Below, one piece after another: positions 9,731-13,080 of a DNA stretch of 29,854 bases. The translations under genes were made by a program, and so were the position numbers. This stretch comes from Candidatus Poribacteria bacterium (lineage in GTDB: Bacteria > Abyssobacteria > SURF-5). The first letter of the stretch is position 1; each line of letters begins with the position of its first letter. The notes below the pieces were generated by a model. It was not told where the DNA came from. It did not search any database and was given only the letters and a program-made list of their open reading frames with translations. Location of the stretch: positions 1-29,854 of the forward strand of contig JACRIR010000061.1 in the NCBI GenBank assembly GCA_016215705.1, written 5' to 3'.

Positions 9731-11344
9731 TTGCCTGCTGACATTGGCGGAAACCAGCCGGTTCAAAATACAAGCGCGCGCCGGATTCTTTCATCTTTGG
9801 CAATTCTACTGCTCGGCCTTTGCTGCGCATATGTCACTTACGTCCACGCGACTGTGGGTGTTCTCCCCTACGACGATTCCTTCATTACCTTCCGCTACGT
9901 AAGCAACCTGTTCAACGGCAAGGGGCTCGTCTACAACACCGGCGAGCACGTCTTCGGAAGCAGCACTCCTCTCTACCTCGCATGGCTCGTTCTACTCAAA
10001 ACGCTCGCCCCTTCAGCGAAAATTCCCGCGCTCGCGGCCCGCGGCAACATCGTATTCTACCTCGCGGCCGGCCTCGGCGCGCTATTCCTTGTCCGCTCGC
10101 TCCTGAGCGGCCAATGGCGGATGCGATGGAGCAAAGCGGACGCTGTCGGCGCAGTCACCGCCACACTGTTTCTCATTCGGTTTGATATGCTCACTATCTC
10201 GACCGGCGCAAATGAGATGTTCCTCTTTGCAACCCTCGTCCTATGGGCATTCTTCTTTCTTATAACGAAGCAATATGTGCTTTCGGGCCTACTCGCAGGG
10301 CTTTCTATAATGGCCCGGCCCGAAGGCGTATTCTGCGCGTTCCTTTGCGGATTGATCTGGTTGCTGCATAACCGCAGGAAGCCCGTCCTGTTCGCCCTTT
10401 CTCTGGGCGGTCCGGGCCTCATTTGGACGTGTTTTGCCTTCTTTTACTATGGAACCCCCATCTACCATTCCTTGATAGCAAAATCCCAGCCGCTGTACCC
10501 ATTTCCAGCCGGCTTTGCTTTCAATTATATAGTTGGCAGGCTCGCGTTTTGGACTGTCGGCAACGACGGGGCAGTTTACGACATATGCGTAGTAATGGCT
10601 GCTGCCGTCGCCGGCTTCGCATTTCGACGACGCATTTGCCCGCTGCCATGGTTCGTTATTCCCTCATTTGCGGGTCTCATCCTGCTTTTCTACGCAGTCA
10701 GCAATCCATTTATGTTCGATTGGTACTTCCTTGTTCTCTTTCTGGGGTGGTTCCTCCTGATAGCGGTCGGACTCTCGCATCTGTTCTCGGCAGCAGCCGA
10801 GGCTGTCAGAGTGAAATTCGGTCTTGCGACGATTTCATTTGTCTTCAACATTCTATCTTTTGCGATACCTGTGTTCTTTCTTGCGAACAGCGCCGCATTC
10901 ACGTGGCAAACCCGAGACTCAAGAAGCCTCCCGGGCTATCTCCCGCGTGACCACGCCGAACTACGCACCCTCATCTACAAGGAAGTCGCAGAATTCATCA
11001 ACTCTGTCGGCGACCCATCGGACACTATCGCAGCGCCCGAGGTCGGCGCGCTTGGGTACTATTCCAGAAACCATCTCTACGACGCATGCGGGCTGGTGAC
11101 GCCGGAAGCCATCCCCTTCCTTCCATTGCCTTACGGGAAACGAGTCGGGCCAAATATCGGCAGCATCTCGGCCGAGTTCGCCAAAGCCGTCAACGCCGAT
11201 TGGATTGTCACGATGGAAGTCTTTTCAATTGAAAGCCTTGCGGATGATCCATGGTTCAAAGAGAATTATGCGCTCGTGAAAGTGTTCCCGCTGTTTTTTC
11301 GCACTTTCAGCAGCGATAACGTGTTGGTGTTCCACCACAAGTGA
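9731..11344 (+). CDS. GT-C-type polyprenyl-phosphate-dependent membrane glycosyltransferase
   Basis: A 537-residue inner-membrane protein with a first membrane segment at about 20-40 and around ten further ones to residue 390, then a soluble C-terminal domain. The first external loop reads VGVLPYDDSFITFRYVSNLF, followed by GKGLVYNTGEHVFGSSTPLYLAW. DDxFITFRY plus GxGLVxNxGExVxGxTSPLY is the loop typical of GT-C enzymes that use lipid-phosphate sugars (e.g. the AftB type); the acidic pair is the likely catalytic site. It may glycosylate an envelope glycan or lipid; the exact acceptor is unknown. Start is TTG at 9731 with AGAGGA eight bases upstream. It converges with rluB. Confidence 0.8.
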   Translation: MPADIGGNQPVQNTSARRILSSLAILLLGLCCAYVTYVHATVGVLPYDDSFITFRYVSNLFNGKGLVYNTGEHVFGSSTPLYLAWLVLLKTLAPSAKIPALAARGNIVFYLAAGLGALFLVRSLLSGQWRMRWSKADAVGAVTATLFLIRFDMLTISTGANEMFLFATLVLWAFFFLITKQYVLSGLLAGLSIMARPEGVFCAFLCGLIWLLHNRRKPVLFALSLGGPGLIWTCFAFFYYGTPIYHSLIAKSQPLYPFPAGFAFNYIVGRLAFWTVGNDGAVYDICVVMAAAVAGFAFRRRICPLPWFVIPSFAGLILLFYAVSNPFMFDWYFLVLFLGWFLLIAVGLSHLFSAAAEAVRVKFGLATISFVFNILSFAIPVFFLANSAAFTWQTRDSRSLPGYLPRDHAELRTLIYKEVAEFINSVGDPSDTIAAPEVGALGYYSRNHLYDACGLVTPEAIPFLPLPYGKRVGPNIGSISAEFAKAVNADWIVTMEVFSIESLADDPWFKENYALVKVFPLFFRTFSSDNVLVFHHK

Positions 11345-11367
11345 TTTGCTGAGCGGTCTGAGACTGT

Positions 11368-11400
11368 GCGAATGAATTTGCACCTGCAAAACTGCGGGAC
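11368..11400 (+). repeat. Family C repeat (copy 2)
   Basis: GCGAATGAATTTGCACCTGC followed by AAAACTGCGGGAC, matching the 3822-3853 element in both the dyad core and the directional tail. It lies just after the GT-C stop. Confidence 0.65.
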
Positions 11401-11454
11401 ACATTTACATTGCGGCGCACATTCACTGTCCGCATTCTCGATTCCGGCCCTGAA

Positions 11455-11529
11455 AGGAGAGAAGGCTGAGTGTCACCCCAAACACTCAGCCTAATGAGGA
11501 GAGGTACGCTACGGATTTCTCCGCAGGTT
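11455..11529 (-). ncRNA. Candidate small RNA in the GT-C/rluB convergent gap
   Basis: A strong leftward promoter (11536-11564) has no gene in front of it. The predicted transcript, starting near 11529, would fold into two hairpins. The first is CTGCGGA-GAAA-TCCGTAG (11509-11526, GNRA-type tetraloop, one G-U pair). The second is an 11-bp stem at 11463-11492, followed by TCTCTCCTTT. That gives an RNA of about 75 bases. No open frame of note lies in it. It could act in trans, or as antisense to the 3' end of the GT-C mRNA if the terminator leaks. This is inferred from sequence only. Confidence 0.35.
11463..11492. terminator. Bidirectional terminator-like hairpin
   Basis: AGGCTGAGTGT (11463-11473) pairs perfectly with ACACTCAGCCT (11482-11492) around CACCCCAA. 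Leftward it is followed by TCTCTCCTTT; rightward there is no T run. It sits between the convergent GT-C and rluB genes, about 120 bases past the GT-C stop. Confidence 0.55.
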
Positions 11530-11535
11530 GACCGT

Positions 11536-11575
11536 ATTATATCATATCTTCCCCACCGTGGCAAGTAGTCCACGG
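11536..11575 (-). promoter_or_regulatory. Strong leftward promoter with operator-like dyad over the -35 box
   Basis: Read leftward: TTGCCA (11559-11564), 17-base spacer, consensus TATAAT (11536-11541). CCGTGG (11556-11561) and CCACGG (11570-11575) form a dyad with an 8-base centre that overlaps the -35 hexamer, a typical repressor position. No gene lies downstream before the end of the converging GT-C gene. The stretch is immediately past the rluB stop. Confidence 0.6.
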
Positions 11576-11635
11576 AATAAATTATTTTGTGCCTGCTCGT
11601 CTGCCAAAAGAGGCTCTTTGAGACCGTCCCGCAAT

Positions 11636-12400
11636 TCAGAGCAGACCCGCCACCTCGGCATCCGACAAGAGACGGTGTTGGCCCGGCTCAAGCGAACCCA
11701 ACCCTATGTCGCCGAATCTGACCCTTGTCAATCGCGCCACCGGATGCCCGACGGTCTCGCACATCCTCTTTACTTGTCTCTTTCGGCCCTCGTGCACGGT
11801 TATCTCGAGGAGAGACCGATCCTCACTCGAGCGCAGAATCCTCGCGCGGGCCGGCGAAGTCCTTACGCCGTCGATCACGACGCCTCGCTGCAAATCCTCC
11901 ATCGCTTCGCGCGAAGGCGTTCCCTCGACTTCAGCATGGTACGTCTTCTCTACCTCGAACCTCGGGTGGGTCAGACGGTGACACAACTCGCCGTCGTTCG
12001 TCATGAGTAAAACGCCGTCGGTGTCCATATCCAGCCTGCCGACCGGATAAAGCCGCGCCGGTATATCGGCGACCAACTCGCTGACTGTACGGCGGCCGCG
12101 CGCGTCGCCCACGGAGCTCAAGTAACCGCGCGGCTTGTTCAGGAGAACATAGAACTTCTTCTCGATTTGGACCCGCTTGCCGTCAAGCTCGACAACATCG
12201 CTCAAGGGGTCAACCTTTGTCCCGAGTTCGCGTGCAGTATTGCCATTGACGCGCACATGGCCCGCAAGCATCAGTTTTTCGGATTGGCGGCGAGAGGCCA
12301 CGCCCGCGAGCGCAAGAAAATGTTGCAGCCTCATGTGTTGCGATTCGCCTGTGGAAGCTCTTCTTTCTTTTGACTTGACGGCTTTCGACCTTCGACTCAT
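11636..12400 (-). CDS. rluB: 23S rRNA pseudouridine synthase, RsuA/RluB family
   Basis: These enzymes isomerise specific uridines of rRNA to pseudouridine. An S4 RNA-binding domain (residues 23-80, MRLQHFLALAGVASRRQSE) precedes the synthase domain, with KPRGYLSS and the catalytic GRLDMDTDGVLL (Asp124). The 254-residue length is usual. The family match is firm; RluB rather than RsuA or RluE is inferred from its place after scpB. The ATG at 12400 overlaps the scpB TGA (ATGA), indicating translational coupling. The first 22 residues are basic and not part of the conserved fold, so the internal ATG before RLQHFLA is a possible alternative start. Confidence 0.9.
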   Translation of the reverse strand: MSRRSKAVKSKERRASTGESQHMRLQHFLALAGVASRRQSEKLMLAGHVRVNGNTARELGTKVDPLSDVVELDGKRVQIEKKFYVLLNKPRGYLSSVGDARGRRTVSELVADIPARLYPVGRLDMDTDGVLLMTNDGELCHRLTHPRFEVEKTYHAEVEGTPSREAMEDLQRGVVIDGVRTSPARARILRSSEDRSLLEITVHEGRKRQVKRMCETVGHPVARLTRVRFGDIGLGSLEPGQHRLLSDAEVAGLL

Positions 12401-13080
12401 GGATTGGGATTTGCCTGGCGAAGCTCTTCGATGGAAGGAAGCTCACTCAGCGACTTGAGCCCGAAATGAAGCAGAAACTCATTTGTGGTCCCGTATGTGG
12501 CGGGTTTTCCGACAACGTCCTTATAACCCACTATTTCAACCAGATGCTTGTCGAGGAGAGTGCGAATGGTGCTGTCCACGTTGACGCCCCGGATTGCCTC
12601 GACTTCGGCGCGCGTCACCGGCTGTTTATAAGCGATCACGGCCAGCGTCTCAAGAGCCGCTCTCGAAAGCTTCGACGCCGTTATCTTCGGCGAATACATC
12701 TTGCGCACCCACGGCGCATACTTCGGTAGCGTCGAGAGCACGTAGCCGCCTGCGACTTCTCTTATCTGGAACGGAAAACCAAGTTCCGTCAGCCTTTGCT
12801 GAACATGCCCGATAATTTCCTCGATCTTCTCCGCGCCGACACCCTCGAGCACTTCCCCGAGTCTCGAAACGGAAAGCGGCCTGTCGCTCACAAGGAGAAG
12901 CACTTCAACAACGGAGCGCAGTTCCTCGTCAGACAAATCTGCGACACTTGGCGCAGCCTCCAGACCCTGGCCGTCCTCGGGCGCAGCATCCTCCGTTTGA
13001 GCGGATTCCGGCGCTTCCGCAATCGTCTCTTCCTCGCGCTTTTCGCCGACGGGTTCAGCAGTCTCGTCATGTGTTTCCAT
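12397..13080 (-). CDS. scpB: Chromosome segregation and condensation protein ScpB
   Basis: ScpB is the winged-helix kleisin partner in the SMC-ScpA-ScpB complex that compacts and separates chromosomes. The conserved core starts at LSDEELRSVVEVLLLVSDRP and includes LSRAALETLAVIAYKQPVTRAEVEAIRGVNVDS and GRP-like VGKPATYGTT segments (both winged helices). The first 45 residues form an acidic Glu/Ala-rich tail not usual for the family. I prefer ATG 13080 (227 residues), which has GAGGAA six bases upstream. A TTG at 13098 overlapping the aroF stop is the alternative. scpA, the usual neighbour, is absent from the window; aroF takes its place. Confidence 0.92.
   Translation of the reverse strand: METHDETAEPVGEKREEETIAEAPESAQTEDAAPEDGQGLEAAPSVADLSDEELRSVVEVLLLVSDRPLSVSRLGEVLEGVGAEKIEEIIGHVQQRLTELGFPFQIREVAGGYVLSTLPKYAPWVRKMYSPKITASKLSRAALETLAVIAYKQPVTRAEVEAIRGVNVDSTIRTLLDKHLVEIVGYKDVVGKPATYGTTNEFLLHFGLKSLSELPSIEELRQANPNP

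Follow-up and report, generated by a model that had tools for sequence, protein, structure and literature searches.

A small-RNA gene family with sigma70-type and sigma54-type promoters in Abyssubacteria

Description

Here, we describe a short noncoding locus in a 29,854-nucleotide window (contig JACRIR010000061.1, assembly GCA_016215705.1) that, judged by comparison with its relatives, is a genuine small-RNA (sRNA) gene outside Rfam. It likely belongs to a lineage-specific family of sibling trans-acting sRNAs that take several inputs and use an unpaired linker to pair with Shine-Dalgarno (SD) regions. Comparison of genomes shows that three genera carry orthologues of this noncoding gene, in three paralogous classes (A, B and C; the window copy is class A), with conservation of the putative promoters, the predicted structure and the unpaired linker. 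The predicted gene, fold and promoters are well supported; the targets and the pairing of the linker with mRNA are inferred. An uncultured deep-subsurface phylum gains an sRNA family not catalogued in Rfam, and the covariance model of eight sequences is usable for finding more copies.

Genomic setting and predicted RNA

On the minus strand of the window, TTGCCA-N17-TATAAT agrees with the consensus at 11 of 12 positions, exactly as the first-pass annotation had read it, and TG precedes the -10 box (extended -10; coordinates in Table 1). This leftward site is the sole promoter-like one in a scan of positions 10400-12800; it proves nothing alone because chance yields about one such site every 2.4 kb (1.1 in the interval scanned), and the case therefore had to rest on comparison, in which conservation among relatives puts the element far above chance. 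No coding sequence lies leftward of the promoter until a convergent 537-aa ORF (9731-11344), which bears out the earlier statement that nothing coding lies ahead. As for the two flanking genes named there, rluB stands, with PseudoU_synth_2 and S4 domains; the 537-aa protein named GT-C gave no Pfam match at E 0.001, nor did a protein pattern scan of genome_contigs turn up relatives.

The dyad described over the -35 box is present letter for letter, and the regulation proposed to act through it finds no backing, as neither relative has it at its orthologous class A promoter. A search across its own genome, suggested earlier as a route to its regulator, returned 1 perfect and 13 one-mismatch places, which is chance level (about 12 expected by our own estimate, 5.47 Mb x 37 / 4^12). 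The dyad is probably not part of the sRNA system. Regulation is evident at the class B siblings instead, in their sigma54 promoter and the half-site array upstream of it.

For the RNA predicted from the class A promoter, the computed fold consists of a GAAA-capped 5' hairpin followed by a terminator-like stem (z = -4.7; 0 of 200 shuffles were as stable). Both hairpins had been anticipated; the stem has 12 pairs rather than 11, and the predicted length is 78 nt where about 75 had been given. The terminator tail is U-poor. No reading frame through the RNA is stop-free except one that has no suitable start, and the compensatory changes described below are not synonymous; the RNA is therefore noncoding.

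Table 1. Predicted features of the window copy and locations of its relatives
Feature	Position	Strand	Remark
-35 box TTGCCA	11559-11564	-	class A orthologues CTTGCGC / CTTGCCT, same N17 spacing
-10 box TATAAT, extended (TATGA-TATAAT)	11536-11541	-	TATGNTATAAT in 3/3 class A copies and the class C copy of the same genome
Predicted transcription start	11528-11530	-	inferred from the -10 box; 2-4 nt before the 5' hairpin, likewise in relatives
Whole predicted sRNA, class A copy, about 78 nt	11452-11529	-	comparison with relatives and fold
5' hairpin CUGCGGA-GAAA-UCCGUAG	11509-11526	-	z -4.7; relatives have other sequence with pairing kept
Single-stranded anti-SD-like linker CCUCUCCUCAU	11494-11504	-	UCCUCAU invariant in 8/8 copies
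12-bp intrinsic-terminator-like stem, UGGGGU loop	11463-11492	-	compensatory changes at 3 pairs
Pyrimidine tail UCUCUCCUUU, conserved, predicted 3' end	11453-11462	-	comparison of copies
CCGTGG-N8-CCACGG dyad	11556-11575	.	present, overlaps -35, not conserved
Class A copies	window copy (G000); G002:C25; G001:C23
Class B copies	G000:C181; G002:C27; G001:C18
Class C copies	G000:C166:54044-54105 (L028); G001:C54:28897-28958 (L029)		more diverged; linker UUCCUCAU; sigma70-type promoter
Class B half-site arrays	L006 about 1170-1230; L010 about 1140-1200; L008 about 1828-1885 (complement)

Copies, classes and distribution

The element was found in all three Abyssubacteria genomes examined, namely the 5.47-Mb genome that carries the window (G000) and two genomes of other genera, G001 and Ca. 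Abyssobacteria SURF_17 (G002). The metagenome-assembled genomes SURF_5 (probably G001) and SURF_17 share only about 65% average amino-acid identity (PMC6121073). With the 161-bp region as query, blastn gave matches in both relatives; a pattern search found exactly 2 copies in each of the three genomes, and one further copy each in G000 and G001 came from the covariance model, for eight copies in total (2-3 per genome) with E values of 1e-14 to 4e-17. At a lax model threshold, nothing beyond these eight reached E < 0.9. Class C was not found in SURF_17, which is 91% complete, and an assembly gap may be the reason.

The class A cores of the three genera are nearly identical, with one or two differences. 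Synteny is partial for each class: the window copy has rluB (67%) and a further neighbour (80%) in common with G002, and a metallo-beta-lactamase gene on the other side (73%) in common with G001; a shared B12-binding radical-SAM gene (61%) precedes the class B copies of G000 and G001; and the two class C copies have three nearby genes in common, at a distance of 5 kb in one of them. From this gene order the three classes are therefore orthologous groups, and the duplications are thus older than the split of the genera.

Outside Abyssubacteria, none of 383 sampled genomes matched (386 genomes searched with the model); this model was built from close sequences and applied strictly at first look, which leaves room for distant relatives. 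The phylum search and exact-pattern scans of viral_contigs and genome_contigs gave matches only in Abyssubacteria, and no phage or plasmid matched. A Desulfobacteraceae contig (L031) matched a loose pattern but scored 14.5 bits with mispaired stem positions and was set aside as chance, and a weak blastn match of 26 bases in another genome (G023) was rejected for not fitting the covariance model. In Rfam 15, no family reached its gathering score, and the matches seen were at chance level, none of them to a bacterial sRNA.

Conservation of structure

All eight copies share one anatomy of 5' hairpin, unpaired linker, 12-bp terminator stem and pyrimidine tail, with the 5' hairpin beginning at most a few nt from the predicted +1. 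UCCUCAU in the linker is unpaired and invariant throughout and is extended to UCUCCUCAU in classes A and B. The stem GGCUGRRUG..CAYYCAGCC, its GGGGU-containing (GGGGUG) loop and the tail YCUYUCCUUU also occur in every copy, and the loop and tail are conserved to the same degree as the linker. In the terminator stem, 100% of 96 cells are paired and 3 pairs carry double changes; the covariation score was reached by 0 of 500 shuffles and was far lower in slid controls. Coming from eight related sequences, this covariation supports the stem but does not prove it.

Between copies, the 5' hairpins vary widely in both sequence and size, from 18 nt in the window copy to more than 50 nt, branched, in the class B copies of G001 and G002. 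They fold better than shuffles in 7 of 8 copies (p <= 0.004), the class C copy of G000 not being significant (p = 0.07). Double changes preserve pairing here too: in class A, for example, A-U is replaced by G-C or C-G, and C-G by U-A, and in class B, G-C is replaced by A-U. The covariance check that the first-pass annotation had proposed thus came out in its favor, and, together with a promoter and start-site geometry kept in the class A relatives, it upholds the proposed candidate small RNA. At the sequence level, the locus combines several features expected of a trans-acting sRNA gene: a promoter, a short noncoding RNA, a terminator, orthologous loci and a structure kept by compensatory changes.

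Promoters of the sibling genes

The putative class A promoters read CTTGC(C/G)N-N17-TATAAT, with TATGN just before the -10 box, in all three genomes. Class C has TATGT-TATAAT in G000 and TGTGC-TATACT in G001. SURF_17 also has, some 85-90 bp downstream of its class A RNA, a second TATAAT-type promoter-like site with an extended -10, TATGGTATAAT (L131, G002:C25; L002 about 1625-1640).

Class B has no TATAAT. Instead, a sigma54 -24/-12 promoter, TGGCAY-N5-TTGCTC, stands 10-13 nt before the 5' hairpin in 3 of 3 genomes (TGGCATATTAATTGCTC, TGGCATGCTTGTTGCTC and TGGCACAGTAATTGCTC), and only 1 other such site occurred in the 206 kb scanned. All three genomes carry rpoN; sigma54 dependence of class B is accordingly indicated by sequence, through its TGGCAY-N5-TTGC promoter and rpoN. 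Upstream of every class B -24 element lies a 56-bp array of TGAAAC/GTTTCA half-sites, at -272 in two copies and about -270 in the third, with a conserved layout (GTTTCA-2-TGAAAC, TGAAAC-like, 3 bp, TGAAAC, 12-13 bp, GTTTCA-TGAAAC). Judged by its location and half-sites, the array is likely an enhancer for an activator of the enhancer-binding-protein type. No enhancer-binding-protein gene was found among the class B neighbors scanned, and no further array among the one-mismatch palindromes inspected. The same half-site palindrome search returned GTTCCACGTGAAAC at G000:C91:11941, G002:C17:31850 and G001:C46:477; these match the parS (ParB) consensus and are probably ordinary chromosome-segregation sites.

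Proposed action

Each sRNA gene would be transcribed alone from a promoter 6-12 nt before the 5' hairpin, transcription would stop at the conserved terminator stem, and the 5' hairpin would shield the 5' end of the RNA. The linker CUCCUCAU, perhaps with the UCUCUCC tail, would pair with purine-rich SD regions of mRNAs and block translation, its complement in such regions being AUGAGGAGAGG. The linker is unpaired in the predicted folds and its core invariant, while adjacent hairpin sequence varies freely. Its exact complement ATGAGGAGAG precedes purH and an acs-like gene in G000, carB in G001 and an mnhB-like gene in G002; no target common to the genomes appeared among the exact-complement sites before starts, and SD sequences alone explain the enrichment of the complement. 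Classes A and C would draw their RNA supply from the sigma70 holoenzyme; class B would add to it only on activation of sigma54 polymerase by an enhancer-binding protein bound to the TGAAAC/GTTTCA array. Different signals would probably feed one translation-blocking RNA, and the promoter classes would tell how each copy is fed. A search for hfq (PF17209) detected none in the three genomes, with positive controls. A bolder version, which we consider doubtful, has a single Hfq-independent anti-SD RNA, confined to Abyssubacteria and encoded by two sigma70 genes and one sigma54 gene, setting translation globally on a deep-subsurface energy or nutrient signal; a dedicated TGAAAC-recognizing enhancer-binding protein would act chiefly or solely on the sigma54 gene.

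It is unlikely that the RNA instead binds a protein for titration or sequestration, with the linker and the GGGGUG loop as the protein site. Loop and tail do equal the linker in conservation, Hfq and shared targets were not found, and csrA is present in 2 of the 3 genomes; however, RNAs of the CsrB/RsmY type carry several loop GGA motifs, no GGA is conserved in the eight copies, and the conserved unpaired motif resembles an anti-SD sequence. In a decoy arrangement on the GlmY/GlmZ pattern, one class, such as B, would imitate another, A or C, and draw a nuclease or adaptor away from it. This would accommodate the homologous RNAs under separate sigma70 and sigma54 control and the three-part upstream sites, as at glmY (PMC6075780), but the putative pairing linker is the same in every class, which a pure decoy would not require, and we hold this to be quite improbable. 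That the element does no more than serve rluB or its convergent neighbor as a terminator or DNA repeat, behind a fortuitous promoter, is highly improbable: it does sit in a convergent gap and end in a terminator-like stem, yet it recurs among different neighboring genes, each copy has a promoter of its own immediately before its own 5' hairpin, and there are only 2-3 copies per genome.

Comparison with known systems

Sibling trans-acting sRNAs that would pair through their linker invite comparison with several described systems, of which the sibling sRNAs GlmY/GlmZ and NmsRA/B come nearest in function. The alphaproteobacterial "cuckoo" RNAs are short, multicopy and marked by the C/U-rich anti-SD motif CCUCCUCCC; there the motif is in hairpin loops, whereas here it is in the linker, and there is no Rfam match. 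The Qrr and CrcZ/CrcY sRNAs depend for their expression on sigma54 together with an enhancer-binding protein; no sequence match to them was seen, and only one class here, B, is of the sigma54 type.

In Neisseria, NmsRA and NmsRB are near-identical siblings with unpaired anti-SD motifs and demonstrated antisense action (PMC5362039). The Abyssubacteria RNAs are likewise siblings with unpaired anti-SD-like motifs, but the NmsRs are in tandem, whereas the Abyssubacteria copies are dispersed and their promoter types differ; no sequence relation was found. GlmY and GlmZ of Enterobacteriaceae are homologous sRNAs that, like the predicted RNAs here, combine sigma70 and sigma54 control; at glmY, sigma54 control goes with activation by QseF at three upstream sites (PMC6075780). 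In contrast to that pair, the Abyssubacteria siblings, from a different phylum and with no sequence or Rfam match to it, all keep the same putative pairing linker, and their upstream half-sites are TGAAAC rather than TGT-N12-ACA. One line of argument in a study of csrB duplication is that differential control of the copies integrates signals (PMC6262261). We claim membership in none of the GlmY/GlmZ, NmsRA/B or csrB systems; one RNA split over sigma70 and sigma54 genes, without Hfq, would be a simple and testable form of signal integration by RNA gene duplication.
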